Part shown: in pieces, positions 9,051 through 38,310 of the stretch
How positions within the stretch are numbered: position 1 is the stretch's first letter
Layout: each line of letters opens with the position of its first letter
NCBI GenBank assembly: GCA_022563855.1
Contig: JADFMN010000002.1
Location: forward strand, 1 to 64,000
Reading direction: 5' to 3'
Length of the DNA: 64,000 nt
Source: Armatimonadota bacterium
GTDB taxonomy: Bacteria > Armatimonadota > Fimbriimonadia > Fimbriimonadales > Fimbriimonadaceae
Position numbers and translations under genes: made by a program
The notes under the pieces: model-generated
What the model was told of the DNA's origin: nothing
Database searches by the model: none
What the model saw: the letters and a program-made list of their open reading frames with translations, nothing else

Positions 9051-9253
9051 AAAACCTAGAACTAATCCACGATCCGAAGAACACGCCGACCGAGAGCGAG
9101 ACCGTTCGACTGGTCCTTTCGCAAGACGAGGCGCTCGCGCTCTTCATCTCACTGGCTCTTGCGCCGACCGCAAACCCGTCGAACCTCGACGAAGTCCTTG
9201 TCCGCCTGTGTGGTGATCTACGCCGCTCGTGGAGCGTTGAAGCCGTGGGCTAG
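9047..9253 (+). CDS. 68-residue protein of unknown function
   Basis: Begins MKNLELIHDP and has a helical, acidic middle (LSQDEALALFISLALA) and a DEVLVRLCGDLRRSW tail. The ATG overlaps the stop of the short leader peptide, and GGAGG lies only one base upstream, so translational coupling is likely. A longer in-frame reading from 8930 exists but has no ribosome-binding site. The last 36 bases overlap, tail to tail, the 3' end of the WD40-caspase gene. No family recognised; it looks cytoplasmic. Confidence 0.5.
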   Translation: MKNLELIHDPKNTPTESETVRLVLSQDEALALFISLALAPTANPSNLDEVLVRLCGDLRRSWSVEAVG

Positions 9254-12200
9254 GAGGACGTTGCGAGAACTTCTCGCAATGCGCGGCGCTCGGCCAATCC
9301 CGAGACGACTGAGGCAAAGTAGCGGCAAAGCACGCATTGACATTCGTATAGGAAGAGGCGTAGTTGTCACGTGCACAGCGTTCATCGCCGGCTTCATGTT
9401 CGTCTCACCAGCGCGGCGAGGCTTCGCGTGATCTTCAGCGATGATGACCGCAGCCTTGTTCCAGATTTCCTCAGCTACCTTCACGACGTCCGTTTCATCG
9501 GTGACCAGGACGAACTCTTCTATCGGTGACGGCTCTAATGCTCCCTCTAGTGGATCGGACCAACGGTCAACGAAGACGGTGACCGTCAGCGTGCCATTTA
9601 AGAGAGAGTACTTGCCTCCGACGACGTATGCGCCGGGATGTTCGTCCACTTTCCAGACCGAGACGCCAGGATTTCCGCCTCGTGTTCCAGAGCTCTTATC
9701 GAGTGCGTTTATCGCCTTTGCCAACCCGAGCGTGTCGTTGAGCCTTCGGTCGTTCTCGTCTGGGAAGGGGAGCGAAGGCAGCACGACAGGCCTCGGCTCT
9801 TCGAGACGGACCTTTGCGCGAACGACGTCGTTCATGACTCCGACGTCGAACGTGCGCGCTCCGTACTTGACCGACTTCAGCTCGGGCTTCTGGACTCCGC
9901 CGATGCCGGCCTCGCGCGTGAGCTGGGGAACGCGGTCCTCGGCGTACGAGAACCAGGCGAACAGGTCGATGAACTTGGTCTCGCCGTCCGTCCTCAAGAT
10001 GCCGTCGTCCCTCTTGAGCCCTTCGAGCAGGCTGTAGGTGAGCAGCCCCTGGCCGTAGACGCTCGCCTCGTAGCTGACGGAGTTTGCTGCGCAACCGGCG
10101 AGCACGAACACTCCCCCGCGGTCCTTGAGCCGCTCCCAGCTGCGCTTGAGGTCTCCCGTCACGCTCTTGTCCTCGCTCAGGGATGCGACCGCTCCCGCCG
10201 GGCACGTGTCGAGCACGAGGGCTTGCTTGGCCGCCGGCACGTCCAGCATCCACGCGCTCAGCTCGGCGCCGGTGATGGTCTTGCGGGCGACGTCCGCCGA
10301 GAGGAGCTGCAGGTTCGCGTCGGCGGCGTCCGCCGTCAGATAGTAGTACTCGTCGCTCGCCGAGCCCGCGCTGACGCCGTGGCCCGAGAGGAACACGATG
10401 AAGATGTCCGTCAATCTGGCGGTCTCGCTGATCTTCTCAAACGCCGCTTTGATGTTCTCTTTGGTGGCGGGCTTTGCGCCGTCCTCGATTTCGTCGCTGA
10501 CGAGCAGGTGCGTCTCGACGTTCTCCTCGCCGACCCATGCCACTGCTGCTGCGGTCGTGGCGTCTGCGAAGTCCCGCGCGTCCTTCGCGGCGAACTTCAG
10601 ATCCATCCCGTTGCCGACGTAGTCCGACACGCCGGCCGCCAGTATGTACACCTTGGGCTTGTGCGCGGTGGTCACGGGAGGGGGCGGCACGTTGACCGGC
10701 TTGGAGCGGCTGCTCCAGTACTGCTTGTTGCCGACAGCTTCGGCGTCGTAGTTGTACGCCTCTGCGCGGATGTTGTTCGTGACTCCTTCGGCAAGATCCC
10801 ACTCAGGAATGAGCAACCGAGAGTATCTCTTCTCGCTCGTATCGATAATAAAGGTGAACTCGTCTTTCGAGGGGTTGTTCGGCCGTTTGCGCAAGACGCT
10901 CTTTCCGTTGAGGAACACCTCGACCGCGCCGATTCCGCCGCCGCGATTGCGAGCGGTCACTGTCACGATGTCGCCGTTCCTTTCGACCGTCGTCGATGGG
11001 AACAGCTTGAGCGCGCGCTCTTGGATGGGGATGGGCAGGGCTCTTTCAGCTTCGCGGTACCCCACGACCTGAGCGAACAGCCCTGGAGTGTAGTACTCGT
11101 CCTTCAACTGGTCGAGGTCGATAGATTCCAGGATGCCGCGCCCGGAGTCGGTGTAAACCCAGTACAGGTCGTCCGTGTTACCGGTGTTGCTGAGGTCGTA
11201 CCGACCGTCAGGCGTCGTGACGGCCCATCCTCCGCCTTCGAACGACACGAGGGCGCAAACCTCCTCTCCCGTCTCGGTCTTCCAGACCCTGATCGTGTTG
11301 TCTAGCGAGAGCGTGACAATATGCGAGTCGTCTTGTGTAAAGAACGCTTGAAGAACTACTCTACTATGCCCCGACAGTACAGCAAGCGAACTTCCAGTCT
11401 CTGCGTCCCACACTCGGGCGGTATTGTCGCTCGAAGACGTCAGAATCTTCGAGCCGTCATGGGAGTAGACGGCCGAGTAAACGGAATCTGTATGACCAAG
11501 AAAATTCTTTATCGGGCCGCTTTTAGTTTCTGCGTTCCAAGTTTGAACTTCACCATTCCAATAGCCTGTAACGACTCTAGAGCCATCGGGAGAATACTGG
11601 CGAGCGGTCGCAGCTTCCAAGTGTTCCCAATTCACCAGATCTCCAGTGGAGAAATCGTAGGATGTGAGATAGAATCCCTGGTTCATGATAATCGAACCAT
11701 CTGGAGAAAAATGGGGGTCGTCGAAATACTCGTCAGAGATTATTCGTTGCTGCCTGGAAATCTCGGCGTCATATTCGTATTGTTGCCCTCCCCTCTGCCT
11801 TGTCCAGACGTGGACGACGCTGCACATGCTAGCAAGAAATCGCGAGCCCTCGCTTGAAAACTCGACATGGTTGACGTTCCTTCTGTCTTCGTGGGTGCGG
11901 TAATCTGATTCAGACAGAATTGAGTCCTCAAGAGCTACAAGATCCATTGTCTGGATCAGAGAGCCTGTCTCTGCATCTCGAATTCTGACGACTCCCCGAT
12001 CATCACCGGTTGCGATGAAAGTGCCGTCCAGTGATACTGCAACAGACTGGCAATCTTCGGCGTACTGCAAAGTTCTGTAGGAGAAATCGGCATTCCACAC
12101 GTGAACGCCTCCGCTGCCAGTGATGAAGAATGAACCGTCTTCACTTATACTTAGAGATCGCTGCCGTGATACTCGGCTTGCCTGGATTCTACCAAAGCCT

Positions 12201-13177
12201 GTCGAGAGGTAGTTGTAAGATGCAAATGGTGCCCTAGTACCGACGCTCAGGAGAGTTCCATCCAAGGCGAAGTCAACGTCCCAGACATATTCCAATTGAG
12301 AATCAATTTGGTCTAGCAATCGTCCCGAGGCTGAATCCCAGACTCGCACGACGTCAGTCGCAGACGAGGTCGTGGCGAACTTTGAACTGTCCGGTGCAAA
12401 GGCGATCTTATCGAAGGAGCGAAGCGGATCCTCAATGGTGTACAGCAGCTTCCAATTCGCTGTGGCCCAAGCGCGCACGATCGCAGGTTTAGACATTGTT
12501 CGGTTTAGTTCGCCAGCAATGACGATCATCGAACCGTCCGGAGAGAACACTACGGAATTGACCTCGTTTCCGCAGTGCAAAGCATTGACTTGGCTCCTGC
12601 TTTCCGTGTTCAAGATGCGTACGATTCCGCCAGTGCCAGCGTTGGCGAGCATCGATCCGTCAGGGGAAACTGCTCCGTCGTTTGCAGCGTAGTTGACTTC
12701 GTCCAATAGGGCGCCAGTCGTTCGATTCCAGAACCGAGTCGCACCTAAGCTGCCGCCGGTAACAACGATCGTGCCGTCTCGCGATAGCTCAGCCCATGTG
12801 GCTTCTTCTGTCACGTCCCACTCCAACGTCAACAATCTTTCGCCTGTCGTTGCGGACCAAACTATAACTTCCATGTCAGAACAAGAAACGATCGACCGTC
12901 CGTCACCTGAGTACCGGACCGAGGTGATCGCTGATAGATGATAATCCGTATGGCCAGCAAGTGCGAACAGCTGGCGTCCAGTTCTGCTCTCCCAAATTCG
13001 AACGACACTATCTTTACCAGCCGTTGCGTACTGCGAGCCGTCTGGAGACACGTCAATACTATAGAAACCGCCGCTGTGTCCGGTCTGCACCATCAGCGAC
13101 ATAGTTGGTCCATCATCTGCCTGGATAGTCGGTGAAGTGAGACCAGCCGCGGCCAAGAGCAAACAAATCACTATCAT
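9218..13177 (-). CDS. exported WD40-repeat protein with C-terminal caspase (C14) domain
   Basis: 1319 residues. A short signal peptide (MIVICLLLAAAG) leads into a long WD40 region, about residues 30-660, with repeated motifs such as FSPDGSMIV, GHTDSVYSAVYSHDGSKI and ARVWDAETG; twelve or more blades, so probably two propellers. A linker follows, then a caspase-like domain from about 839 (KPKVYILAAGVSDY) with catalytic His at about 931 (FLSGHGVS) and Cys at about 991 (LVLDTCPAGA). Both are present, so a Cys protease is predicted, with the propellers recruiting substrate or sensing. The last 55 or so residues are basic and unlike a folded domain and may be readthrough of a lost stop. It faces a small plus-strand gene and begins the protease-rich locus. 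Confidence 0.9.
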   Translation of the reverse strand: MIVICLLLAAAGLTSPTIQADDGPTMSLMVQTGHSGGFYSIDVSPDGSQYATAGKDSVVRIWESRTGRQLFALAGHTDYHLSAITSVRYSGDGRSIVSCSDMEVIVWSATTGERLLTLEWDVTEEATWAELSRDGTIVVTGGSLGATRFWNRTTGALLDEVNYAANDGAVSPDGSMLANAGTGGIVRILNTESRSQVNALHCGNEVNSVVFSPDGSMIVIAGELNRTMSKPAIVRAWATANWKLLYTIEDPLRSFDKIAFAPDSSKFATTSSATDVVRVWDSASGRLLDQIDSQLEYVWDVDFALDGTLLSVGTRAPFASYNYLSTGFGRIQASRVSRQRSLSISEDGSFFITGSGGVHVWNADFSYRTLQYAEDCQSVAVSLDGTFIATGDDRGVVRIRDAETGSLIQTMDLVALEDSILSESDYRTHEDRRNVNHVEFSSEGSRFLASMCSVVHVWTRQRGGQQYEYDAEISRQQRIISDEYFDDPHFSPDGSIIMNQGFYLTSYDFSTGDLVNWEHLEAATARQYSPDGSRVVTGYWNGEVQTWNAETKSGPIKNFLGHTDSVYSAVYSHDGSKILTSSSDNTARVWDAETGSSLAVLSGHSRVVLQAFFTQDDSHIVTLSLDNTIRVWKTETGEEVCALVSFEGGGWAVTTPDGRYDLSNTGNTDDLYWVYTDSGRGILESIDLDQLKDEYYTPGLFAQVVGYREAERALPIPIQERALKLFPSTTVERNGDIVTVTARNRGGGIGAVEVFLNGKSVLRKRPNNPSKDEFTFIIDTSEKRYSRLLIPEWDLAEGVTNNIRAEAYNYDAEAVGNKQYWSSRSKPVNVPPPPVTTAHKPKVYILAAGVSDYVGNGMDLKFAAKDARDFADATTAAAVAWVGEENVETHLLVSDEIEDGAKPATKENIKAAFEKISETARLTDIFIVFLSGHGVSAGSASDEYYYLTADAADANLQLLSADVARKTITGAELSAWMLDVPAAKQALVLDTCPAGAVASLSEDKSVTGDLKRSWERLKDRGGVFVLAGCAANSVSYEASVYGQGLLTYSLLEGLKRDDGILRTDGETKFIDLFAWFSYAEDRVPQLTREAGIGGVQKPELKSVKYGARTFDVGVMNDVVRAKVRLEEPRPVVLPSLPFPDENDRRLNDTLGLAKAINALDKSSGTRGGNPGVSVWKVDEHPGAYVVGGKYSLLNGTLTVTVFVDRWSDPLEGALEPSPIEEFVLVTDETDVVKVAEEIWNKAAVIIAEDHAKPRRAGETNMKPAMNAVHVTTTPLPIRMSMRALPLLCLSRLGIGRAPRIARSSRNVLLAHGFNAPRAA

Positions 13178-13452
13178 CTAGACCCTCGATCTAAGACTCA
13201 GTCTATCACTTCACTCAGAAGATGGCCCACTTTGCCGGTCATGGATCAGTATTGCGAACAGCTGATTACATCGACCGAGCGCCAAGGAGCACATCAGCCT
13301 GTGCGGAACGGCGCGCCGAGGAAACCCTGTTCGATCGCTAACCCCATGGCGCCGATCTCGGCCATAGCTTCCAGCCTCGTGCCCGGTCGTCTCCTGGGAC
13401 CTTTCGCCACCGTGGTCATACGCGCTGCGCATTCGCATCTAGCAAGGGCGTT

Positions 13453-14067
13453 ATGAACAACATCACAACCCGAATCAAGTCAATCTTTGCAGTTTCCCTC
13501 CTCGCAGCCACCATGGTTGCCGGAGCAACGACCCCGACGCTTCAAGCGTCCGACAATCGCGAGGCGTTCGGCGAAGCCTATAGCTACGCGAGCCTCGTAT
13601 TCGAGGTCTACAGCGCCGTCTACGACGAGGATGGCCGCGAAGACGCTGCCGCCCACATGCTGGAGTACGCAAATGCCTACGCCAACGATGAGTACCGGCT
13701 AGCCATCGAGCAGGCGGTCGGCCAGATCGAGTGGACCGAAGAAGGAGTCGAGCCGGTGCTCGACCTGATCACGTACAGCTCGATAGAGTATCTGTATTCG
13801 CTCGACGACGAGCAGCTGTGGTACAGCGATTTCGGCCTGAATCTCACAGCGTTCCTCATCTCATTGACGGTCGGAGACTTGGACTGGATCGTAGAGGCCC
13901 TTGAAGACCTGGCGGCTACCCTCGGCATGGCTCCTGATGAGATCGAGCCCTTCCTCGCCCCTGTGCTGACCGCTCTAGGCGATCTGGTATCTGACGACGA
14001 CATGAACACGGACGAGATACTGACGATGCTCGACGAGCTCGAGCTGGTCGCAAGGAGCAATCAGTGA
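13453..14067 (+). CDS. secreted acidic protein of unknown function
   Basis: 204 residues. Signal peptide: MNNITTRIK, hydrophobic stretch, probable cleavage after TLQA near residue 32. The mature part is strongly acidic and helical, with many Asp/Glu and Tyr and almost no Lys. No enzyme motif. It stands alone on the plus strand between the WD40-caspase and PDZ-TPR-CHAT genes, both on the minus strand, and is followed by a good terminator, so it is a single-gene unit. Its position makes it a candidate substrate or partner of the neighbouring proteases, but nothing in the sequence proves this. Confidence 0.75.
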   Translation: MNNITTRIKSIFAVSLLAATMVAGATTPTLQASDNREAFGEAYSYASLVFEVYSAVYDEDGREDAAAHMLEYANAYANDEYRLAIEQAVGQIEWTEEGVEPVLDLITYSSIEYLYSLDDEQLWYSDFGLNLTAFLISLTVGDLDWIVEALEDLAATLGMAPDEIEPFLAPVLTALGDLVSDDDMNTDEILTMLDELELVARSNQ

Positions 14068-14097
14068 TAACGTGACGATCAGAAATACGCGCTCACA

Positions 14098-14120
14098 GGA
14101 GTCTGCCGGAGGCAGACTCC
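14098..14120 (+). terminator. rho-independent terminator-like hairpin
   Basis: GGAGTCTGCC and GGCAGACTCC pair perfectly around a GGA loop, 30 bases after the stop of the acidic secreted protein, and are followed by CTTCTCTATTT. The T-run is weak. The rest of 14121-14367 up to the next gene holds nothing I recognise. Confidence 0.65.
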
Positions 14121-14367
14121 CTTCTCTATTTGGAACCGTTTGCTAACCGGTGCCTCGACCATTCATGCTATGGCGATTAATGATGCCTGCGGCTGGCCCC
14201 GAGCTGGTCGAAGTGTTGTGTGCCGCGTACCAGCACGAGGCCGAAAATCATAAATCGTATACGTCCAATACGACATATAGTCCTTTCTTCTGCAGAAGCA
14301 TAATCGGAGCATGAGCAGCCTGAAAGTCCGAGGGCAGTGGTCCGCGGCCAGGCGGGAGCAGGACCGC

Positions 14368-17300
14368 CTATCGCCAATCCCCAACGAGCATGAACGGCGC
14401 CCAGTGGAACGGGTGCCGCCATGTCGCGTCTTCGCGGACCGACGCCATCGCGCGCTGCAGGGCGACGTCCTTCGCCGCGCCCTTTAGCAGCTCCGTGTAG
14501 AACGCGACCATCAGATCTGAAGTGCTGTCGTCTTGAACGCTCCACAGGCTCACGACGATGCTGCGCGCGCCCGCGTACTGCAGCGCGCGCGTAAGGCCGA
14601 CCACGCCCTCGTTCTTGGTGGTTTCGCCGAGCGCGGTCTCGCACGCGCTGAGCACTACGAGGTCTGCGTTTAATCGGAAGCTCTCGAATATCTCCCAGGC
14701 CTGCAAGATGCCGTCATCGTCATCCGATGCCAACAGTGCGATGCCGGACGCTAGCGGGTCTTCGTCGTCCAGCAACCCGTGGCTGGCGAAGTGTACGATG
14801 CGCGCCTTTGCGGACAGCTTCTTCGCCTCCGTCTCAGTCGCCTTCGTGCCCAGACGGACTACCGCGGCGTCGCCGAACAGCGCGGCGATGGACTCCACTT
14901 CCAGCAGCGTGAACGGAAGGCGGGACAGCTCCTGTTGCCTTAGCTGGCTGCGCCGTGTGCGAAAGTTCTCGTCGGCCTCTGCCTCCTGCCCGTTGGAATG
15001 CTCTCCGTACGCGGGATCGCCGAAGGCGAGCAGCTCGTACTCATACTCCTTCGGGGATTCCTCCCACTGCAGGCGGGTCTCCGCGTAGACCGTCATCGAG
15101 ACGATGGTGTGCAGAGGCTTCGTTTCTCCGAAGAAGCGGGCGTTTGCGAGGGCCCGAGGATCCTCCTTGTCCGCTAATGCCCCTACTCCCGCGAACTCGC
15201 TGCGTCTTTGTCCTGAACGCCAGCCGCCCCGCGCGGTTTCACTTTGGCTGCTTTTGCTCGTGCTGGCATCTTTGACATTGGCGACCAGCGCAGCGAACGG
15301 CAGGTTGTGGAGGGGGCCGTCGGGACAGACAAGGACGCGCTCGGCTTTTTCTATTTCGGACTCGGCTGGCCGGACCAGAAGGTCGTAGAGCCCCTTTCCT
15401 TTCTGCACGACCGCCCCCAGCGCAACGATCGCGTATCTGAAATCGGTGACGAGCTGCTGCAGTTCCTCGGCGCCGACGTTCAAACGGTACAGCTTGAGGC
15501 CGAACTCTCTTTCCTTTCGGGGTTTTTCACCGCCCAGGAGCGTGAAGAGGTAGGTCTCCTCCTTGTCCACGAAATAGGTGAGCAGCAACGTCCCCTCATC
15601 GAGCGCCGCCTGCGAACCTTCGAGGTCGAGGGGTTGCGGGTACTGGACCGACGCGTACTTCGGCGACTGCCTGCGGAACTCGGCGTCCAGCTCGCGCTGC
15701 TGGACGCCGAGCCTCAGTATTTCCGCCCGCAGATCCTCTGCCTCAGGCGAGCCGGCTCCGCCGGCGAGCTTGGCGAGCATGGAGTAGGTGGAAGCCCTCC
15801 TCGCGTCAATTTCGTCCTGTTCTTCAACCAGCTCTTGCGGCGCGTCTGCCGCGAAGTCCAATCCTCGCTCGCTGATCTCGTCCAACAGCCCGCGTGCGCG
15901 GCTCCGCTCGACAAGGTCGAAGGCCGCAGTTCCATCCGCGAGCGCCACGTGCGCGCGGACCAGCAGCGCATACGCCGTGAATTTACTACCCAGCAACAGA
16001 GAACGGGCCTCAGCGGAGCGTATCTGCTGCCTCTGCGACTCGATGATCTCGATCGCTTGCGAGTAGTACTGAACTGCATCGGCGAAGTTATCCGTGCCGT
16101 ATGCGACAACGCCCAGGTTCTTGAGGCTGTCGGCCACGTCTAACGAATCGGGAGCGAGACGCTCATAGATTGCCAGCGCGCGTCTTTCATACTCCTCCGC
16201 CGCCTGCAGATCCCCACTCTCCCATGCTACGTGACCCAGACTGCTGAGGGTCGACGCCACGTCGAGCGAATCGGGAGCCAGACGCTCCTTGATCGCGAGC
16301 GCACGCTTGTGATACTCCTCCTCCGCCTCAAGGTTTCCACGAGATCCCGCGATGACTCCCAAGTTGTGTAGGCTCGCGGCAACGTGGAGCGAATCGGGAG
16401 CGACACGCTCGTAAACTGCCATCGCGCGTTTGTCATACTCCGCCGCCGCCTGCAGATCCCCGCGCGCCCATGCCACGTTGCCCAGGTTGTTGAGGCTAGC
16501 GGCCACGTCTAGTGAATCGGGAGCGAGACGCTCATAAGTTGCCAGTGCGCGCTTGTAATACTCTTCGGCCGCCTGTAAGTCGCCAAGATCGTACGCGACG
16601 ATACCCATGTTGTTGTAGGTATCTGCCACGTCGAAAGAATCTGGAGTAAGACGCTCTTGAATCGCTAGCGCGCGCCTGTAATACTCCTCCGCCGCCTGGA
16701 AGTTGCCACGGTCGGCGGCGACGATGCCCAGGCTAAAGAGGCTTGCGGCCACGGCGAGCGAATTGGGGGCGAGACGCTCCCTAATCGCCAGCGCGCGGCT
16801 GTAGTACTCCTCCGCCCCCTGAAGGTCGCCACGGTTGGAAGCGACGTTGCCCAGGTTGTTGAGGCTCATTGCCACGTCGAGCGAACCGGGGGCCAGACGT
16901 TCTTTGATTTCCAACGCACGCGCGTAATAGTTCTCCGCCGCCTGTAGGTTCCCTCGGCCACCTGCGGCGATCCCCAGGTTGTTGAGGCTCGCGGCAACGG
17001 CGAGCGAATTGGGAGCGAGACGCTCTCTGATCTCCAGTGTTAGCAGGAAATACGATTCCGCTGCGCCTGGGTCGCCGCGCATGTCTGCGATGATGCCCAG
17101 GTTGTTGAGGCTTGCGGCCACGCCGAGCGAATTGGGAGCGAGACGCTCCTTGATTTCCAGCGAGCGCTCGTAATACTCCTCTGCCGCCTGCAGGTTCCCT
17201 CGGCCGCGTGCGGCGATCCCCAGGTTGTTGAGGCTTGCGGCCAAGGCGAGCGAATCGGGAGCGAGACGCTCCCTGATCTCCAGTGCGCGCAGGAAATACG

Positions 17301-18087: not shown

Positions 18088-18331
18088 CCCTCCACCGTTA
18101 CACGAATAAGATAGTCCATGCTGGCTGAGAAGTCAAGAACGTTCGGCGTTTAGGCTATGAATGCAGCCCATGCGAGCACCGTGCGCCGCTCCGGCATCGC
18201 TGTGACCGGCAGTGGCGGCGTATCTTCGGTCGGTAAGGATGTCATGGACGCTCTATGGTAATAAAAACGCAATAGGTATATACTCGATCTGAGGTGCCAG
18301 GCTGGCGACTGAAGCGTCAAAGGAAAACGTA

Positions 18332-20446
18332 ATGCGAATCGCTCAATCAGTCCTCGCGCGTCTCCATCGGCCAGCGCTGGCCCTGTGTGGTTCCGTCATT
18401 CTCGTGGCGCTGACCGCCACCTCTCTGCCGGCCACGAATCCCGTTTCGCGGGATTTGGCAACGGAGCCCACCAAGATCGCCATATTGATCGGCGTCTCTT
18501 ACAAATTGTGTGAAGGCAATCCCAAAATGCTACACACCGCGCAAGATGTCGAGGCGCTGAAAGTCGTTTTAGAGAAGGAGCGGTTCGGATTCCAGGTGTT
18601 CACTTTTGTCACTCCAGAAGAAACCACAAAGGATGCAATCCTGAACGGAATCAGAGACATCGCCAAGAAACACGTCAAGCCGGGCGGAGTGCTGTTCATT
18701 CATTTTTCCGGCCATGGCAAACAGGTCCGCGATGAGAGCGGCGACGAGGCGATCGACGGAAAAGACGAGGCGTTCGTACCGTCTGACGTCTGGCAGGACG
18801 GAGTGAAGAAGCGGTACATACTCGATGACGACATTGCCGTGCTGCTAAAGGAGCTAGAACAGTTTCAAACACTGCAAACGTTGCTCACGTTCGACAGCTG
18901 CTTCTCTGGTTCGATGATGCGCGGTGGACCGCTGGCGCGGGGCGATATCGACCAAGAGTCAGCCGGTGATGCAATCGTGGATACAAGCTTTCTGCTTGAC
19001 GAGATGTCGGGTGCGATAGTCATGTCGGCCGCTCGATCGAACGAAAGGGCGTATGAGCTTAGGAATGAAAAGATCGGAGCGTTTACGTTCGCGCTGGCGT
19101 CTGCACTGGAGTCTTCCGCTGGTCCAGACACCACGATTGAAGAAATTCTCGGAAAGGTAAGACGAGTCCTGATGTCGAAGGGGCACACCCAGGAGCCCCA
19201 GGTCGAGGGCGACAGAACCAGAATCATTTTTGCTGGGGGCACAAAGCAGCGTCCGACTAGCTGGCCTGCGGGGTTAAACGGCAACACCGTTCTGCTCCGG
19301 GCGGGCACAGTGCACGGGATCACAGTCGGCAGCGTACTGCTAGGATGCCAACTCGGCACATTCAGTCCCAACGATGACGATGAAGCCGTCATCGGTAAGT
19401 TTGAGGTCACGAAAGCTGGGATGCTGGAGTCGGAACTCGAGCCGCTCGATAAGGGCATTTTTGACTCGATACCGAAGAAGTTCGTCACCTTCATGTATGA
19501 GCGGTCTGTCGCGACAGATCAAACGCGTGTTTACTCCGACATAGAAGAACTGCGGCTAGCCTTGTCGCAGCGGCTTGACGATAAGAGGTTCGCCGTAACT
19601 GCCGACGACCTTATTGCAGACTTATCGATCGTGCCAGCCAGCGAGCAGGGGAGCGGTCGCGTGTCGCTAGCGAGATTTGGCGCAGTTATTCCGCTGATCC
19701 AGGCAGATAAGAGCTATGTGACCTCAGTTGATCCAAACACGGATGAAGGCATCGGTATTCTCACGGATGCGATCAATAGGTTCAGGCTAGCGCAAAGGTT
19801 TGCCGTGCTGGAGAATCCGGAGGAGACCCGGCTCGTCTCGCTACTCCGCGTCACTCCTTGCGCGGTCGAGTACCGGACGCTCGAGTATGACGTCTCCGGC
19901 GGAGAAACAAAGGAGGGAAGATTCTTGTGCTATGTTGCCGACTTACCAAGACAGTCTGGAAACGCCGACAAAGCGGTCGTAATGGAGCCGGGTAGCTACT
20001 TTACGATCAGAGTCAAGAACCTGTCTCCACGTGAAACGTACTACCATATTCTATCGATCGATCCTGCGTTTAGCACTCATGTTCTCTGGCCTCCTAGAAA
20101 CCAAAGCAACGAACCAGCCCAACCACTGGATGAACTTGCGATCAAAGATGACTTGGTCGGCTGGAAACAGTTCATGGTCAATCGGGAAGTTCGAGGAACA
20201 GTCGTAGGAAAAGTAGCGTTGTATAAAGTCGGCGAAGCGGGCGGAAACGAGACTATCAAAGTGATTCTCGCCACCCGTGACATTGGAATTCACGGGGCTA
20301 TCGCAGGGACCGGGCCTCGCAGGGGCGACGCGTTGAGCTCGCTGCTGCAAGATGCTCTACCGGGCACGCAGCGCACTTCCCCGTTACGAGGCTGGGGCGC
20401 GACCGAGATGACGTTCGTCGTTGGCAAGAAGCGTCCGGCCGACTAG
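18332..20446 (+). CDS. exported caspase (C14) protein with DUF4384-like C-terminus
   Basis: 704 residues. Signal peptide at residues 1-36. The caspase domain spans about 45-290: TKIAILIGVSYK, then His128 (HFSGHGKQV) and Cys190 (TFDSCFSGS), the expected dyad, with an acidic-rich loop between. The middle third is unassigned. Near the C-terminus YFTIRVKNLSPRETYYHILSID resembles DUF4384, a beta-sandwich often joined to bacterial caspase domains. AAAGGAAAA lies before the ATG. It is the first gene of the plus-strand operon that continues with the sigma factor 17 bases later, which suggests that the protease and its transcriptional control are linked. Confidence 0.9.
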   Translation: MRIAQSVLARLHRPALALCGSVILVALTATSLPATNPVSRDLATEPTKIAILIGVSYKLCEGNPKMLHTAQDVEALKVVLEKERFGFQVFTFVTPEETTKDAILNGIRDIAKKHVKPGGVLFIHFSGHGKQVRDESGDEAIDGKDEAFVPSDVWQDGVKKRYILDDDIAVLLKELEQFQTLQTLLTFDSCFSGSMMRGGPLARGDIDQESAGDAIVDTSFLLDEMSGAIVMSAARSNERAYELRNEKIGAFTFALASALESSAGPDTTIEEILGKVRRVLMSKGHTQEPQVEGDRTRIIFAGGTKQRPTSWPAGLNGNTVLLRAGTVHGITVGSVLLGCQLGTFSPNDDDEAVIGKFEVTKAGMLESELEPLDKGIFDSIPKKFVTFMYERSVATDQTRVYSDIEELRLALSQRLDDKRFAVTADDLIADLSIVPASEQGSGRVSLARFGAVIPLIQADKSYVTSVDPNTDEGIGILTDAINRFRLAQRFAVLENPEETRLVSLLRVTPCAVEYRTLEYDVSGGETKEGRFLCYVADLPRQSGNADKAVVMEPGSYFTIRVKNLSPRETYYHILSIDPAFSTHVLWPPRNQSNEPAQPLDELAIKDDLVGWKQFMVNREVRGTVVGKVALYKVGEAGGNETIKVILATRDIGIHGAIAGTGPRRGDALSSLLQDALPGTQRTSPLRGWGATEMTFVVGKKRPAD

Positions 20447-20463
20447 CCGCCGCAGTATTGGCC

Positions 20464-21537
20464 ATGAGTCATGCAACTCTAGAACTCCAATGGGATCCGG
20501 TCGTCTCGCGCACGCTGCGAGACGACCAGGGATTGATCGATGAGATCGAATTCGAGAGCCTTATCGAGCGCCATGTCGTTCCTCTTGCTGGTCGCGTGCT
20601 GAAGAGCCGCTTTGGCGGTTTTCCAAGCCGCGGTCCAAACGTGCGAATGACTGTGGAAGAGGACATGGCAGACCTTGAGGGCGAATGCGTTCGGCTCGTC
20701 ATTCAGAGAATCCGCACGGCAGCGGCGGGCGATGCGGATGTGATCCAAAACCTTGATGGGTATGTAGCGAAGACCGCGCACCGCGTGTTCGACGAGTACT
20801 TGCGCCGCAAAAGCCCGTTGCGCAGTTCCATCAGTAACAAGCTGCGGTATCTGTTGCGAAACCGGACAGGGCTTGCGTTGTGGACCGATTCCGAAGGCGG
20901 GCTTGTCTCGGGATTCGAACAGTGGAAAGCAGAGCAGGTTTCTGTGAAGGGTCGCATCCGCCTGCGCGCGGAGCGTGACGCCAACGCCGTACTCCAGGCG
21001 GTTTTCGCAGCCGGAGAAGACCCAAAGGACTTTCAGGCGCTTGCAGTCTGGCTGCTGCGCGAGAACGGCGGGCCTGCGAGCTTTAGCGATCTCGTTGCCT
21101 CGATCGCGCTCGTAACGGGAACTGTCGACCAAGAGCCGGTGTCTCACGAAGACCTTGGTGCCGGCCATGCCGAAGACATCGTTTCTTCCGGTATATCCGG
21201 TCCCGACGTCCTGACTGAGATGAGGCAGCAGCTTGAACTGCTATGGAGCGAACTGTGTGGACTCCCTGTGAATCAGCGTTGCGCGATACTGTTGAACCTT
21301 CGAGACCATCGCGGCAAGGGCATCGTCGCTCTCTTGCCGATTCTCGACGTAGCGAGCCTGGATCAGATCGCGGAGGCGCTTGAAACTAACCTCGACGATC
21401 TCCGGTCCTTCTGGGACGATCTTCCGCTCGATGATTCGGCGATAGCCGAACGGATCGGCGTAACCCCAGTACAGGTGATTGGGCTCAGGCGGGCGGGGCG
21501 GGCGAGGCTGCATAGAAGAATGGAGGCGAAAAATTGA
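20464..21537 (+). CDS. ECF-type (sigma-70 family) sigma factor, divergent
   Basis: 357 residues from the ATG at 20464 (a TTG two codons earlier is weaker). A region 2-like part at about 25-125 has a pattern of acidic helix, then NLDGYVAKTAHRVFDEYLRRK. The region 4-like end has LPVNQRCAILLNLRDHRG and a helix-turn-helix DSAIAERIGVTPVQVIGLRRAGRARL. Between them lies about 170 residues, far more than the short linker of a normal ECF factor. Predicted to direct RNA polymerase to its own promoters; the next gene looks like its anti-sigma factor. The caspase gene lies just upstream in the same operon. Assignment rests on region 4 more than region 2. Confidence 0.7.
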   Translation: MSHATLELQWDPVVSRTLRDDQGLIDEIEFESLIERHVVPLAGRVLKSRFGGFPSRGPNVRMTVEEDMADLEGECVRLVIQRIRTAAAGDADVIQNLDGYVAKTAHRVFDEYLRRKSPLRSSISNKLRYLLRNRTGLALWTDSEGGLVSGFEQWKAEQVSVKGRIRLRAERDANAVLQAVFAAGEDPKDFQALAVWLLRENGGPASFSDLVASIALVTGTVDQEPVSHEDLGAGHAEDIVSSGISGPDVLTEMRQQLELLWSELCGLPVNQRCAILLNLRDHRGKGIVALLPILDVASLDQIAEALETNLDDLRSFWDDLPLDDSAIAERIGVTPVQVIGLRRAGRARLHRRMEAKN

Positions 21538-21634
21538 AAAAAGTCTCGACCGGTGGTCATATCGCGCATTTGTTCGCATCTCGGCACTGCAAGACGGCCT
21601 GTGCATCTGGTTTGCGCGAGCGGGGTTTTAGGCT

Positions 21635-22918
21635 ATGAAGCGAAAAAAGAACGGCGACGAAGAAAGCAAGCGAATCGACAGGGTTGCAAGCTACGAGAAT
21701 CTGGCTAAGACCCTCGCGGACGAATCTGCGCGCAGCGAATTCGAAGATACCCGCCACTACTCAGCGCTTCGCCAGAGCCTCTTAGGCGAACAGTCCGAAT
21801 CGGGCGTCGAGTTCGAGCTTCTGGAGCAGTACGTCAACGGTACTGCTGACGATGTAACGAGAGAGATTGTCCAGGCGCACATGGCCAGCGACCCAACCGT
21901 TCGGCAAGAAGTCGAAGAGCTATTAGAACTTCGAGGCAAGATTGAGCTCGGAGGACAGACTGCACTCTCTCCGAAGCCGTCAAAGAAGGGCCGGGCTTCG
22001 CTCACCAACTGGGTGTTCGGTTCCTTTGGTGCCGTCGGGATGGCTGCGGCCGCAGCAACGCTCCTGTTCATCGCCAACCCTCGCAGCGAACGGATCAATG
22101 GACTCGAGTCGGAAGTCGCGATCCTCGGTCAAGAATCAGACCATGCAAGATCGGGGTTTGAGGCAGCGCTAGAGGAGATGCAAAAGAACATCGATGAGCG
22201 AGAAGGAGAAATCGGTGACTTGAATGTAAGAATAGGCGACTTGAACGAGGCGCTAGAAGGAGCGACGCCTGAGTCCGTTTTTGAGCAAGCGGGAGCACGG
22301 TACGTAAGATCTGCGAACGGGTTGATCGAGAAGAGAGAGCCAGCCTCAGAGTCGGTATTGGCACTGCTCAGCGGCCGCGCGATCTCCGAGATTGCGTTCA
22401 CGGTGCCGGTGGCGGTAGAAGGGGGCGTTTCTCGCGGGGGCGATCTCCGCGCTGTCGGGCTGACTCCGATTCAATCAAAGGTGCCGACGGACAAACCTGT
22501 TTTCCAGTGGGAGCCGGTCGAAGGCGCAGTCCGCGTCCAGGTCGTTGTCGAGACGATCGCAGGCCAGCCTGTCATCACGAGTCCGTGGCTTGACGGCGAG
22601 CAATGGACTTGCAGCATCGAGCTTGAACCCGGGGTCACGTACCAGTGGTACTTGAACGTTGAGGATTCGGCGGGCGGGATTGAATTAGCGACGGTCCGGG
22701 ATGAGCTGCCTGCGACGTTCGAGATCGGACAGCCCGCTGAGTGGGACAAGGTTGGTTCCTTCACGTTGGGCGAGCCGACGCTTGAGGGCTTCGGGTGGCT
22801 GCTCGAGCGCGGCTACCTGGAAGGAGCGGAAGAGGTCTTAGCAAAACTGATCGCAGCTAACCCGGACGATCCGGAACTCGGTAAATGGCAGAGAGAGCTT
22901 TCCCGCATGAGTGGTTAA
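21635..22918 (+). CDS. membrane anti-sigma-like protein with coiled coil and FN3-like domain
   Basis: 427 residues. The N-terminal cytoplasmic part contains LLEQYVNGTADDVTREIVQAHMASDPTVRQEVEEL, whose layout resembles anti-sigma N-domains, but the His-Cys-Cys zinc ligands of ZAS domains are absent. A membrane span at about 127-148 (GAVGMAAAAATLLFIA) is followed by a coiled coil (about 152-205) and a beta domain (about 280-375, PVFQWEPVEGAVRVQVVV and GVTYQWYL) like fibronectin type III. Position right after the sigma gene makes an anti-sigma role the likely one, with the outer domain sensing. The zinc-less N-domain is the main doubt. Confidence 0.65.
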   Translation: MKRKKNGDEESKRIDRVASYENLAKTLADESARSEFEDTRHYSALRQSLLGEQSESGVEFELLEQYVNGTADDVTREIVQAHMASDPTVRQEVEELLELRGKIELGGQTALSPKPSKKGRASLTNWVFGSFGAVGMAAAAATLLFIANPRSERINGLESEVAILGQESDHARSGFEAALEEMQKNIDEREGEIGDLNVRIGDLNEALEGATPESVFEQAGARYVRSANGLIEKREPASESVLALLSGRAISEIAFTVPVAVEGGVSRGGDLRAVGLTPIQSKVPTDKPVFQWEPVEGAVRVQVVVETIAGQPVITSPWLDGEQWTCSIELEPGVTYQWYLNVEDSAGGIELATVRDELPATFEIGQPAEWDKVGSFTLGEPTLEGFGWLLERGYLEGAEEVLAKLIAANPDDPELGKWQRELSRMSG

Positions 22919-23123
22919 AAGGTCTCCTCTGACGCATCGTTCTGGAAAGGTCATTGCCATGGCTTCGTAGCGGTTCGCACTGGGGATTTTTGTTAGCGGG
23001 ACGCGCATACTCAGCACCAAGCGATCTTGTCCGGAAGACTGCACCACTGCAGGTAGGATCAATCGCTGTTCAGAACCTATTGTGCCAACGCGGGCCACAA
23101 GATACCGGGCGAGAATACGCTGC

Positions 23124-23150
23124 GGAACTAGGTATAACTTTCACAGGTCC
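23124..23150 (+). promoter_or_regulatory. possible ECF-type promoter before the metallopeptidase gene
   Basis: GGAACT at 23124-23129 and GTCC at 23147-23150 have the sequence and spacing of ECF promoters (GGAAC, then about 18 bases, then GTC). It lies 40 bases before the metallopeptidase start in a 270-base gap downstream of the anti-sigma gene, so the local sigma factor could drive the last two genes. A match of this size can arise by chance. Confidence 0.3.
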
Positions 23151-23189
23151 ATTCTTTCCACTGGATCGATGGACCAAAGGAGAACCGAC

Positions 23190-25103
23190 ATGACGTTTCT
23201 GCCTTTGCTTTTGCTGCTCTCCGGCACCGCTCAAGACCCGGAATTTACGCAGGCTGACCTCCAGCTGCTAGTCGATCGCGTGAGTGCTGTGGCCGAGAAG
23301 TTTGACAAATACCTCTATCCGCCAACCGTGAGATTGACTTTCAATGATCGGATAAACGCTTTCTCGACAGTTGAAGCAGAAGGCGATGACCTGCGCGCAG
23401 TCGTCGAGTTTGAACTTGAAATGATCAAGGCGTTCGAATACGACGAGGGCATGATAATGTCGGTCTTGTGCCACGAATTCGCACACTTGGCAAAAGGTCA
23501 TTCGTATTACCGGCTTGTGGACATCGTGACAGGAAAGATTCGAACCGACGTTGAATCCAGGGGTCATTCGCAGTTCGCGGAAACAGAGGCCGACAAGATC
23601 GGACTTCGATACTTGCTTCAAACCGGCGGTACGCGTGAAGACGCGATGAAGGCGTTCCGGTGGATGGAAAACGACCAGCGACGCGGCCGGAACGACGGCT
23701 ACGCGCTGCTCCACTTGCTAAGTGCAACGCATCCCTCGGCGATCGACCGTATGGCATCCATCGCAGAAGACCCTGCCGTATGGGAGTCGCTGCTCACATT
23801 CAGGACCGGCCTTGCTCTGATGGAGTTCGGTGAATGGACTCGCGCAATTCGGCAGTTCAATCGCGCTATCCGGCAAGAAGACGGGTTGGAAGAAGCTTAC
23901 GTCAATCGTGCGATATGTTCTCTGAGGCACTATTACGACTTGCTGTCCAATGACGTGCGAGCGTCTTGGCCGATTCCCGAGTTCTATTACGGCGTCTGGC
24001 TGAAGTGGTCGACAATAACGGCACGAGGCGGTGGGATTGATGTCAAGGACCGAGAGCGGTACGCGGAGGCTAAGAACTATATCTCGGAAGGACTAGGAAA
24101 GTTTCCGACCAACGGAAAGCTGCTTGGTATGTCTGTTCAAGTTCTATCATTGCACCCTGATCAAGTGCCAAAAGCCGAATTCCTTGAAAGCCGTCAAAAG
24201 CTGCTGGACCTATGGGAAGCGCCAGGTGTGAATATGAGTTGGGAAGACAAGAGAGTGGATGACACAGCTCTCATGAGCTACTACGATCGCTCTGAGCTGT
24301 CTACGACCGTCGCCAATACGTATCGCGCAGCCCTGATGGATCATTACATGGACATGATGGGAGAGGTGGCACTCGACCTCGGACTGACGAAAGACGAATC
24401 GAAAGACAAATGGGGATTCCTATTGCGCCAGACTCCGAACATAGCAAGCCTTCTCAGCCACCAGAACACCGCCCCGGAGTGGAAGGACGGGACGTTGCTA
24501 TTGATGAATTGGCTCATGCTCAATCCGGCGACGGATATCTGGAATAGAACTAATGAACAGTATCAGCGGCTCTGTGCGGCAATCGATGCTGAACCTGAAC
24601 CAGTTGAGCCAGCTATGCCAACGCTGGCCACAACGATTTCGGTGCAGATCGCTGAAGGTCAGGTGACACTGATGGATGAGGAGAGTGACTTGGTCAAGGT
24701 GCTAGGTGCGCCGTCATCAGCGGTAGATATCGATCCCGGTAGGCCAGGCCTGAGGAGACTGTATTGGATTGGAGCAAACGCATCCTCAGTTCTACTCGTT
24801 GACGGCAAGACCATGGCATTCTCAACCGCTAGGGTTGGCGCAACCATAACAGTACGTTTAGGTTCTGATCGAACTGCGAACGCTCGGACGGTGACGTTTG
24901 AAGTCGGCAAGACGCTCGAACATGCGGTCGCTTCCTCAAGCGGGGCACTCACGATGATTGACCTTCGATCGAATATGCTCGGTTCAGGACTGTTCGATGA
25001 AGCTGACGTACTGGGTGGTCACAAAATATACTTCGCGAACGGTTTGACTATTGCCCGGCGACCATCTGACGGGGTCATCTTGTCGCTTTCGATCAGTGCT
25101 TAA
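23190..25103 (+). CDS. exported M48-like zinc metallopeptidase with TPR-like region
   Basis: 637 residues. The ATG at 23190 follows AAAGGAGAA at ideal spacing and begins a short signal peptide (MTFLPLLLLLSGTAQ). Zinc motif HEFAH at residues 95-99, and ETEAD at about 132 provides the third ligand, as in M48 peptidases (HExxH, then ExxxD). After the peptidase domain, TPR-like helices (ALMEFGEWTRAIRQFNRAIRQ) fill about 205-330. The last 130 residues, beta-rich, are unassigned. Predicted periplasmic protease. It is placed between the sigma/anti-sigma pair and a TPR-CHAT protease, so it could process the CHAT protein or be processed by it; inference from position only. Confidence 0.82.
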   Translation: MTFLPLLLLLSGTAQDPEFTQADLQLLVDRVSAVAEKFDKYLYPPTVRLTFNDRINAFSTVEAEGDDLRAVVEFELEMIKAFEYDEGMIMSVLCHEFAHLAKGHSYYRLVDIVTGKIRTDVESRGHSQFAETEADKIGLRYLLQTGGTREDAMKAFRWMENDQRRGRNDGYALLHLLSATHPSAIDRMASIAEDPAVWESLLTFRTGLALMEFGEWTRAIRQFNRAIRQEDGLEEAYVNRAICSLRHYYDLLSNDVRASWPIPEFYYGVWLKWSTITARGGGIDVKDRERYAEAKNYISEGLGKFPTNGKLLGMSVQVLSLHPDQVPKAEFLESRQKLLDLWEAPGVNMSWEDKRVDDTALMSYYDRSELSTTVANTYRAALMDHYMDMMGEVALDLGLTKDESKDKWGFLLRQTPNIASLLSHQNTAPEWKDGTLLLMNWLMLNPATDIWNRTNEQYQRLCAAIDAEPEPVEPAMPTLATTISVQIAEGQVTLMDEESDLVKVLGAPSSAVDIDPGRPGLRRLYWIGANASSVLLVDGKTMAFSTARVGATITVRLGSDRTANARTVTFEVGKTLEHAVASSSGALTMIDLRSNMLGSGLFDEADVLGGHKIYFANGLTIARRPSDGVILSLSISA

Positions 25104-25128
25104 TAGGAGGTTCATCGACAGGCTGAGA

Positions 25129-28100
25129 ATGTTCGCTGACAGGTCACTTGCCGGTCGCTTCGTAGTCGTTGAGCGGCACCTGTGCCAGCTCCGCAGGCGG
25201 CTGGCGCAGTTCTTGGCGATCGTCGTTCTCGTGGCAGCTTCCATTGCTGGTGCAGAGGCTCAGCCTGCCCGACCGCAAGAGCAGAGCCTCGAGGAAGCAG
25301 TCGCCCAGTTCATCGCTAAGTCATACGACCGGGCGATCCGGATCGTGGACGACGGCATAGAACTCGCAGACCGATGTGCGGCCGCGAAGAACGCAGACCT
25401 GCTCGACACCGTTTACGGCGCAGCCCACGACAAGCTGTCCGCTGTACGAGACGACAATCCCGCAAGATGGACTTTCCAGACCCTTCGCTTAGGAGAAAAC
25501 GCTGAGAAGAACGACAGGGAGGGGCTTCAAGTATCGTCGTTTGTTGAAATCAGCCAGTACAGCCAGACAAGCGACAAAGTTCCTATTCTCTATCTTATTG
25601 AAATAGCGGTTCGACTCAACGAGCAGGCATTGAAAGGAAAGTACCAAGAAGAGGCGGCGCTGGTTAACCTCAACACGTGCAAATCGTCGCTAAGGTCTTC
25701 ATTCGTCCCGAACGAATTCCGCATGCAGCTCTTGGCCAAAGCCTGTGAACTCGGGCTCATCGTAGGCAGGTTTGACATTGTCGAGGAGGCGCTTGAAGTC
25801 GCACGTCCTATCGTCGACGATGAAGCGAGGAATGGTCCGAGGTGGTTGTCATTTATCCCGGCTAACCGCATGCTTTTGGCTCAGAGGCAATCGAGGTACG
25901 CCGATGCGGTTGAGATCGCGCTCTCCTCCGCTTCGAACCTTGAGGCCGCCGGGTTCTTCGATCAGGTCGCTTTTCTTTACGATCAAGCGCTGGTATTCCA
26001 GCGGTCGTATCTGTCTGGTGGCGGCGACATGCCGATCAATCATATCAAGACCGAAGTCCTGCCAAGGGTCGATGACCCCGGAATTCGAATTCGTCTAGAG
26101 GCGCAACTTGTCGCTTGGGACTTCTTTGTTTTGTCAAGTGAAACTGCGGTTGATGCAGCCGGTAGCGTGCTCGAAACGGCTTTCGGTCAACTTAGCTCCA
26201 GCCACTTTTCAGTTTTTGTCAGGCACGATTCCGCATTGGCTCTTAGTGTCTCAGCGAACGTCCTCCTTGCTGCTGGGAAGGAGCCAGATCTCGTATTTGA
26301 CAGGCTCACGACCGGGTCTGCTTTCTATTCGGGATTGGATCCGATTCAGCTGGCGGCAAGAGCAGTATCGAAAGCCAATGTTGCCGCTCAAGTCGATATG
26401 CTTGCCGCATACGCGGCGCTCATGATCGGCGAATTTGGTCAAGCCGAAGCTATCGTCCTGGGCGTGTACTCAGATCCCGAGTACGACATTCTCTATCCGA
26501 TAGTCGCATCTGGAGTTGCACAGCTGCTCGCAGGGATATACATTAATACGGGACGATACGACGCCGCGGCCGACACCTTGGAGCATGCATATCAACTCGT
26601 TGCAGGCACGACTGCCCTGGACTCTATTCTGCATCTGAGTATGTTGAACGACTTGTTGGTCGCAACCGCCAACAGCTTCCGAACGCAACGGTCAATTGAA
26701 GTTGCAGCCGTTACGGAGCATGCGTTGAGTGCGGTCGGGAAGCGCTACCCAATGTGGTCGTCCATGCTTCACCTGAATCTGGTCGGTCATTACATGGCGC
26801 AAGGCGACGCGTTATCCGCTGGAGCGCACGCCATGTCAGCTACGGAGGACCTCTTTCGATCCGGTCTTCCGGCTGCAGATGTGGCACTTTACGTTGCCTG
26901 GGCGGAAGTACTGTCCGCGCTGGCCGCATCGGACGTCGAGTCTGCGAGCACGGCGCTGGGACGGCTTGAAATGGCGATCGATCCTGAGGTTCAGCTTTCC
27001 GGATTGACCAACAGCTGGGTTCCAGAGTTGCTCATGCAGGCCGTTGTCGCTGCGCTGCTCCTGGACATGACCCAAGAGGCGCAGGACCTTGTCGACCTCG
27101 CCTTTGACTGGTTCTCAGACGACCTGGAAAGGAACTTCATTTCTCTTCCGGAGCAGATCGTCATCGGTCGCATGATTAGTGCCCAGTACCTGAAGGCCGT
27201 GCTGCTACGGTTGTCAAGTGACGAGGGAGCGTTGCAAGAGAGTGAGCTTTGGCAGCGGCTCCAGTACCTGAAGAACATCGGTAACTCGCTTTGGTCTATC
27301 CAAGCTAGTGCGAAGATGGCAATCTCCTCAACAGAAGAAGGAGCTGAATTGCTCAAGGAGATCCAGCGGCTGGAATCCCGACCACCGCACTCTGGGCAAG
27401 GAATCGCAGCGCGTACCGCGGACGCACGGCTGGCCCAAGCGTACTTGGAACTGGCGGCGATGATTGATGTCGCAGATTACAGCCTTGAACCCTCGGCCGG
27501 AAACTGGAGCGATAGGCTCGAGGCCGGGGATCTGCTGTTGGACTTCTATGAGGTCGGCGTACAAGACTGGCGAAAGGTCGTCGTCTACGTCGCGACGGAG
27601 AGCGGCCTTCAAGAGTCGTTTGTTGTCGACGCATCGTTCGAAGAGCTGTCGAACCGGGTGAAGAGGCTTGTCGACGCGCTCAACTCGGAAGGACGATCGG
27701 AACCTGTTTTGGCCCCCCCTGGCAATATCGGGCCGATTTGGGAAGAGCCCGCCAAAAAGCTCTACGATCTGCTTATACGTCCTGTCGAGAATCTTCTAGC
27801 CAAGTCGGACCGGCTCATCGTTATCGGAGACGGGATAATCCATAACGTAGTCTTCCCAGCCCTGTCGGACGGTGAGAAGTTCTTGATCGAGAAGGTCACG
27901 TTCGAGCGATGGATGCCGGGCCGACTGCGCAACTCTTCAGCCGAGGCCGGCCCTAGCCTAGTCGTTGCGAACCCCGATTATGATTTCAAGATCGCCGCGA
28001 CCCCGGCCAACCGTGTTGGAACCGTGACGTGGACCCAGCTAAATGGCACGTCTACTGAAGGCGACGAAATATCGAAGTTGCTCGGCGTCGTGCCGGTGAC

Positions 28101-28671
28101 CGGCCCCAAGGCGACGGAAGACGCCTTGAAAGCGGTGGAATCTCCACGAGTACTTCATATCGCGACCCACGGTTTCTTTGAGACGTCCAGCGCCAAAGCC
28201 GATCAGGCAACAGGTAGCTTCGGCATGTTCTCTCGGAACCCTTATAAGAGATCTGGCCTAGTGCTTGCCGGAGCAAACGTGCCGGGGGCGACCCTCGATC
28301 AAGACGGCATATTGGACAGCAGGGAGTTGTTGCAGATCAACCTGAGCGGTACCGAACTGGTCGTCCTCTCCGCGTGCGAGACGGGCCAGGGAGTCGTTGC
28401 GGACGGAATGGGCGTTATCGGACTTCAGCGATCGGTACTCGGCGCGGGCGCCAAGAACGTGGTCATGAGCCACTTTCGAGTGCCTGATGAGGCGACGGTC
28501 TTGCTCATGATCGCCTTCTATGAGAGCTGGCTGGGCGGGCAACGGGTCTCAGATGCGCTTAGCTTCGCACAGCGCAAGATGCTAGCGGACCCGAACACTC
28601 GCGATCCCCGGAATTGGGCGGCGTTTAGCGTTCTGGTCGGAGTGTCCCTCGACCCCAATCCTCGGGGCTGA
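25129..28671 (+). CDS. exported TPR-CHAT protease
   Basis: 1180 residues from the ATG at 25129. GGAGG lies 17 bases before it, longer than usual; a GTG at 25096, overlapping the upstream stop, is an alternative. Signal peptide: RRRLAQFLAIVVLVAASIAGAEA. A long helical TPR-like solenoid (about 50-830) is more degenerate than in the other CHAT protein. The CHAT domain has KLYDLLIRPVENLL, LIVIGDGIIHNVVFPAL, His1014 (HIATHG) and Cys1083 (LSACETG) and ends RNWAAFSVLVGVS. Both catalytic residues are intact. Last gene of the caspase-sigma-anti-sigma-metallopeptidase run, all in one direction. Confidence 0.9.
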   Translation: MFADRSLAGRFVVVERHLCQLRRRLAQFLAIVVLVAASIAGAEAQPARPQEQSLEEAVAQFIAKSYDRAIRIVDDGIELADRCAAAKNADLLDTVYGAAHDKLSAVRDDNPARWTFQTLRLGENAEKNDREGLQVSSFVEISQYSQTSDKVPILYLIEIAVRLNEQALKGKYQEEAALVNLNTCKSSLRSSFVPNEFRMQLLAKACELGLIVGRFDIVEEALEVARPIVDDEARNGPRWLSFIPANRMLLAQRQSRYADAVEIALSSASNLEAAGFFDQVAFLYDQALVFQRSYLSGGGDMPINHIKTEVLPRVDDPGIRIRLEAQLVAWDFFVLSSETAVDAAGSVLETAFGQLSSSHFSVFVRHDSALALSVSANVLLAAGKEPDLVFDRLTTGSAFYSGLDPIQLAARAVSKANVAAQVDMLAAYAALMIGEFGQAEAIVLGVYSDPEYDILYPIVASGVAQLLAGIYINTGRYDAAADTLEHAYQLVAGTTALDSILHLSMLNDLLVATANSFRTQRSIEVAAVTEHALSAVGKRYPMWSSMLHLNLVGHYMAQGDALSAGAHAMSATEDLFRSGLPAADVALYVAWAEVLSALAASDVESASTALGRLEMAIDPEVQLSGLTNSWVPELLMQAVVAALLLDMTQEAQDLVDLAFDWFSDDLERNFISLPEQIVIGRMISAQYLKAVLLRLSSDEGALQESELWQRLQYLKNIGNSLWSIQASAKMAISSTEEGAELLKEIQRLESRPPHSGQGIAARTADARLAQAYLELAAMIDVADYSLEPSAGNWSDRLEAGDLLLDFYEVGVQDWRKVVVYVATESGLQESFVVDASFEELSNRVKRLVDALNSEGRSEPVLAPPGNIGPIWEEPAKKLYDLLIRPVENLLAKSDRLIVIGDGIIHNVVFPALSDGEKFLIEKVTFERWMPGRLRNSSAEAGPSLVVANPDYDFKIAATPANRVGTVTWTQLNGTSTEGDEISKLLGVVPVTGPKATEDALKAVESPRVLHIATHGFFETSSAKADQATGSFGMFSRNPYKRSGLVLAGANVPGATLDQDGILDSRELLQINLSGTELVVLSACETGQGVVADGMGVIGLQRSVLGAGAKNVVMSHFRVPDEATVLLMIAFYESWLGGQRVSDALSFAQRKMLADPNTRDPRNWAAFSVLVGVSLDPNPRG

Positions 28672-37943: not shown

Positions 37944-38039
37944 CCCCCCCCGGGGGGGCTCCCCCTAGCACATGACCCCGGGGGGTGGAACGATCCATTG
38001 AAGCCCTTCTGCGCACGAGCCTCGCGGCGGAGCCCGGGT

Positions 38040-38276: not shown

Positions 38277-38310
38277 ACAATTAGCCTGACTTCAACGATG
38301 GTCATTTATT

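Follow-up and report, generated by a model that had tools for sequence, protein, structure and literature searches.

A divergent sigma-70-family factor recurrently linked with CHAT and caspase-fold protease genes in Armatimonadota, a possible transmembrane signalling module

What might exported proteases of the caspase fold have to do with a transcriptional switch? This question is raised by the locus at 9218-28671 of a 64,000-nucleotide stretch (hereafter the window; positions 1 to 64,000 of contig JADFMN010000002.1, assembly GCA_022563855.1) from an Armatimonadota bacterium. The seven open reading frames (ORFs) named there by an earlier sequence-only reading are all present and open. Two of them encode CHAT proteins and two caspase-fold proteins; the other three encode a divergent member of the sigma-70 family, an anti-sigma-like protein with a single membrane span, and an M48 peptidase.

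A relative of the sigma-like protein is present in 33 of 291 genomes of the phylum. Its neighbourhoods (about 10 kb to each side, several shortened by contig ends) were compared for 31 other genomes and the window, the genes being typed with profiles built for this analysis. A CHAT or caspase gene lies near the sigma gene in 16 of these 32 genomes, where gene numbers and genome sizes lead one to expect 0.45, and these cases are distributed over seven families. The nominal probability of 5e-23 assumes independent genomes, which related genomes are not, and the number of families is therefore the better statement of the linkage. That linkage of the sigma/anti-sigma genes with CHAT and caspase genes is recurrent and not random can be stated with very high confidence; conservation of this neighbourhood was also the point at which the sequence-only reading could have been refuted, and on this point it is supported. 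CHAT genes occur in 31 of the 33 sigma-bearing genomes compared with 125 of the 258 others (no correction for kinship). In individual genomes, the sigma gene is surrounded by all four PF00656 matches of the genome (G066), by both CHAT genes and all four PF00656 matches (G072), or by the only CHAT and the only PF00656 match (G001). The recurrent pairing across families suggests that caspase-like proteases and sigma switch share one signalling circuit. A parallel sigma-CHAT association is represented by four loci with CHAT genes near ordinary extracytoplasmic function (ECF) sigma genes (L113, L119, L122, L131), the first three also containing an anti-sigma relative.

In ten loci (families f26, f33 and f35), the genes are arranged on one strand in the order CHAT-sigma-anti-sigma, with CHAT and sigma separated by -1 to 115 bp and the CHAT gene being the sole one of its genome. 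This CHAT-first order is not absolute, since the f35 genomes G233 and G234 carry CHAT on another contig; in family f33, an ordinary ECF gene lies between sigma and anti-sigma. The operons of L049 and L050 contain two sigma genes (CHAT - delta-like sigma - ordinary ECF sigma - anti-sigma). The His/Cys dyad is intact in every sigma-linked CHAT, and hydropathy predicts an export segment in most of them as well as a membrane span in most anti-sigmas. An extended -10 site of the housekeeping type (TGnTAnAAT) precedes seven of the ten operons versus 0.16 expected from simulated sequence, several of the ten being closely related and their start codons approximate; this suggests that CHAT is made before the sigma factor is active, i.e., before the signal. 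On a quickly built CHAT tree, the sigma-linked CHATs form not one lineage but several, with 8 label changes, of which well-supported branches force at least 5; this points to repeated recruitment of CHATs to the sigma family; the sigma tree requires 7 label changes, at least 4 of them forced.

The four caspase-fold proteins of the window comprise (i) a WD40-repeat protein with a C-terminal caspase-fold domain (9218-13177, minus strand; dyad H933/C992), (ii) a protein composed of PDZ, about 11 TPR and CHAT (14368-18087, minus strand; H1103/C1149), (iii) a caspase of the Peptidase_C14 family (18332-20446, plus strand; H128/C190), encoded 17 bp ahead of sigma, and (iv) a second CHAT protein (25129-28671, plus strand; H1040/C1109, numbered from TTG 25051, which opens the ORF ahead of ATG 25129). 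Matches to PF12770 are strong for the two CHAT proteins (E 1.9e-62 for the first, 4e-67 for the second), and the caspase matches PF00656 above the cut-off (E 9.5e-23); these three are family members with dyads and hence predicted proteases. The WD40 protein lies outside the PF00656 matches of the genome and matches the NCBIfam model caspase_w_EACC1 under that model's cut-off (E 4.5e-13). Its His/Cys pair aligns with other caspases, relatives in locus L046 pass PF00656, and in both L037 and L046 relatives are encoded beside members of the sigma family. By alignment to the profiles, the dyad is intact in all four proteins, and a hydrophobic N-terminal segment in each predicts export (hydropathy only; no signal-peptide predictor). 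The claim of four large exported proteins with intact caspase or CHAT dyads is thereby borne out, export as a prediction. The whole 3.18-Mb genome contains only three CHAT genes, two of them in the locus, and three PF00656 matches, one of them in the locus, so that the clustering of proteases exceeds chance.

The PDZ-TPR-CHAT protein of the window groups in the CHAT tree with a sigma-linked CHAT of family f12, where a relative of it is encoded convergently to anti-sigma/sigma (L059/L062). A full-length paralogue (76 % identical; CHAT at 8680-12390 of L104, G000:C3:22500-42400) results from duplication within the genome and is located on a different contig, where its surroundings contain no sigma gene. 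The PDZ domain was considered as a shared sensor and rejected, as it is missing from the 14 other sigma-linked CHATs.

The sigma-like protein (20464-21537, plus strand; opening codon TTG 20458, refined start ATG 20464) consists of sigma2, a beta hairpin, a probable delta-subunit-like winged helix and sigma4. Alone it has no Pfam match; among 24 family members, Sigma70_r2 was matched by ten and Sigma70_r4_2 by two, weakly (best E 1.9e-5). With a profile built from the 25 ordinary sigma factors of the host genome, several members of the family are detected (best E 1e-8), and the family profile weakly matches SigW (E 0.029). With the predicted structure (mean pLDDT 84.5), a structure search placed sigma32 and sigma28 near the top, none at E <= 0.001. 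Standard ECF (group 4) sigma factors contain only sigma2 and sigma4 with nothing between them and have about 200 residues. Homology to the sigma2 and sigma4 regions, the first mark of this group, is present as family-level weak matches, but the protein has about 350 residues, with the hairpin and a three-helix domain between sigma2 and sigma4. The former label "ECF-like" is therefore imprecise: the sigma-70-family relationship stands, the assignment to standard ECF factors does not. The middle domain matches the delta subunit of RNA polymerase (E 5e-4 for the full profile, improving to 1.1e-5 for the domain by itself; the top five matches are delta chains), in particular its N-terminal domain (2KRC; HARE-HTH type). 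The assignment is probable rather than certain because the reverse test with Pfam did not detect this domain in the sigma family. Delta is a separate subunit of the polymerase, whereas here the domain would sit inside the sigma factor.

Curated family models miss this sigma family, and the sole annotated record found for it is labelled hypothetical protein. A protein search of plasmids yielded one relative, on the Abditibacteriota plasmid pIAD-21 (AP024153.1, L138); the sigma/anti-sigma pair at 9683-12247, annotated as hypothetical proteins, lies next to a Calx-beta protein and to a gene whose annotation is serine proteinase, not caspase-fold protease. In two loci (L039:8332-9366 and L041:8483-9436), the gene after sigma encodes a Ser/Thr protein kinase and not an anti-sigma, and one sigma-family protein (L042:9070-10497) has an N-terminal FHA domain; together, these suggest control of the sigma family by phosphorylation.

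The anti-sigma-like protein (21635-22918, plus strand) is predicted to possess a cytoplasmic helical domain (confident helices at residues 60-105), one membrane span (about residues 124-147), a coiled coil, and an extracytoplasmic part composed of an FN3-like and a C-terminal helical domain. Class I anti-sigma factors with a zinc-binding anti-sigma domain (ZAS/zf-HC2) carry the zinc motif HX3CX2C. The zinc ligands are lost in the window protein, a degenerate ZAS; zf-HC2 was, however, matched by 15 of 21 family members scanned, and an anti-sigma relative adjoins the sigma gene in 25 of the 33 loci. Helical domain, single span and sigma-adjacent gene fit a class I anti-sigma, and the protein is predicted to bind the sigma factor, in keeping with the membrane anti-sigma-like protein first proposed.

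Linkage of sigma factors with caspases has already been published for other phyla. Metacaspase operons with sigma-70 genes were described in 2012 for Myxococcus, Anaeromyxobacter, Haliangium, Sorangium, Ralstonia and Fibrobacter (PMC3501461). As here, a caspase-fold gene shares a predicted operon with a sigma-70 gene; the passage describing these operons does not name Armatimonadota and gives no sigma type, anti-sigma or CHAT. Neighbourhoods of ECF sigma, EACC2-caspase and DUF1822 TPR genes, reported in 2021 (PMC8195603), likewise combine a caspase with a variable sensor domain, an ECF sigma factor and a TPR protein; in the window, no EACC domain was recognised, and the related EACC1-type model is matched only below its cut-off. 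Closest in logic is Craspase of type III-E CRISPR systems (Cas7-11, the TPR-CHAT protease Csx29, Csx30 and CASP-sigma), in which Csx29 cleaves Csx30, the inhibitor of CASP-sigma (PMC10028731). Both cases genetically tie a TPR-CHAT protease to a sigma factor and an inhibitor, but Craspase is cytoplasmic and RNA-guided, whereas the window encodes predicted exported proteases, a membrane-spanning inhibitor-like protein and a sigma factor with delta-like insert. Scans of the seven ORFs and their neighbours revealed no Cas family except a weak Csx29 match far below cut-off; they did not extend to Cas genes elsewhere in the genome or to CRISPR arrays. Apart from Craspase, no paper on a CHAT/anti-sigma/sigma operon was found, which is weak evidence of absence given incomplete journal coverage. 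The earlier statement that no such system is described may hold for the exact set of genes, but must be qualified by these three close precedents.

As a tentative answer to the opening question, the locus may represent a transmembrane signalling module in which an exported protease acts upstream by cutting the anti-sigma. Its core would be the sigma-70-family factor with delta-like middle domain, held by the single-span anti-sigma with FN3-like extracytoplasmic part, and coupled to exported caspase-fold proteases, i.e., a TPR-CHAT, joined by a WD40-caspase and a caspase in some genomes of the order to which the window belongs. Binding of an envelope ligand to the TPR, PDZ or WD40 sensor part would activate the protease, which would then cut the anti-sigma outside the cytoplasm, a site-1 cleavage comparable to that of RseA by DegS except for the caspase-type fold of the enzyme. 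The freed sigma factor would alter transcription, possibly including that of the neighbouring protease genes as feedback. Ligand sensing, cleavage and sigma release are what we infer from the family relationships, intact dyads, matching topology and repeated phylum-wide linkage that the sequences display. The RpoE-RseA-DegS pathway of Escherichia coli similarly involves a single-span anti-sigma and an extracytoplasmic protease, and one window protease even shares the PDZ domain; the differences are the trypsin-like fold of DegS, as opposed to caspase/CHAT folds with inferred cleavage, and the lack of PDZ in other sigma-linked CHATs.

Several observations speak against an upstream role of the proteases. 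Roughly one sigma locus in two lacks a caspase-fold gene in its vicinity, and in L039 and L041 the kinase gene stands next to sigma instead of an anti-sigma; a protease is thus not the sole possible input. In the window itself, the proteases are split over several transcription units, and the extended -10 site was not found before any protease gene, so that protease expression may be sigma-driven there. A housekeeping-type promoter-like site (TTGACT-N17-TATCTT; 18108-18136, minus strand) does lie upstream of the PDZ-TPR-CHAT gene, but it is weak, as counts in a promoter scan of the window were no higher than in shuffled sequence.

Conversely, the proteases may be outputs, as the sequence-only reading proposed: an envelope signal would free the sigma factor, which would transcribe the surrounding exported protease genes, and their products would work outside the cytoplasm, e.g., against damaged envelope proteins or competitors, or in lysis. 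This explanation, plausible if somewhat doubtful, agrees with the general knowledge that alternative sigma factors often transcribe neighbouring genes, and with the window, G066 and G072, where a single sigma/anti-sigma pair is flanked by several different caspase-fold genes that belong to several transcription units. It is less easily reconciled with the housekeeping-type sites opening the CHAT-sigma-anti-sigma operons of other families, and a single, genome-unique CHAT as first operon gene fits a switch component better than a regulon member. On account of the extended -10 sites and the Craspase precedent, action of the protease on the anti-sigma is considered slightly likelier than production of the protease by the sigma factor; the two directions are compatible and could both hold.

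Sigma/anti-sigma and proteases might also lie together on a genomic island, or respond to a common signal, without acting on each other. A tyrosine recombinase gene 8 kb from the locus (36798-37943), the patchy distribution of the sigma family (33 of 291 genomes) and the loci without proteases would be in line with this, but the near-abutting same-strand gene order kept across families, and the fact that one sigma family has independently recruited CHATs of different lineages, render it unlikely. An anti-phage or cell-suicide system in which the caspase-fold proteases kill the infected cell is highly improbable, despite weak PADLOC matches to generic caspase, TPR and repeat models and the known action of TPR-CHAT and caspase proteases in defence (general knowledge; PMC10028731), since all four proteins carry export segments and family and PADLOC scans of the seven ORFs revealed neither a nuclease nor an NTPase sensor nor any other defence gene.

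One may speculate further, though this is rather doubtful, that exported CHAT/caspase-fold proteases constitute a general class of anti-sigma site-1 proteases recruited several times to one sigma family, that Craspase follows the same logic of protease, inhibitor and sigma in a cytoplasmic, RNA-guided version, and that the built-in delta-like domain modulates RNA polymerase. The conserved sigma/anti-sigma/CHAT operon offers a candidate substrate, the anti-sigma, for bacterial caspase-like and CHAT proteases; it lends itself to a simple reporter assay and may be a counterpart of the Craspase circuit outside CRISPR. As a transcription initiation factor, a sigma protein containing a delta-subunit-like domain would itself be unusual.

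The zinc metallopeptidase of the sequence-only reading is indeed an M48 enzyme (23190-25103, plus strand; ATG 23190 with AGGAG upstream; PF01435, E 3.7e-9; HEFAH). Its membership in the system was rejected, since the M48 profile has no other match in any sigma neighbourhood examined; in G093, one M48 gene stands beside a caspase gene, away from the sigma gene. Given the refined starts at ATG 23190 and ATG 25129, the M48 and second CHAT genes do not overlap but are 25 bp apart.

Further along the window, a PD-(D/E)XK-like nuclease gene lies about 1.3 kb beyond the tyrosine recombinase gene, and this stretch (36798-39990) is possibly the edge of a mobile element. Three large minus-strand ORFs (42936-44588, 46797-48761 and 49244-52168) are without Pfam match at E 1e-6. 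Between the WD40-caspase and PDZ-TPR-CHAT genes, a small acidic protein of 204 residues with a likely export signal is encoded at 13453-14067 (plus strand), followed by a terminator-like hairpin at 14098-14120.

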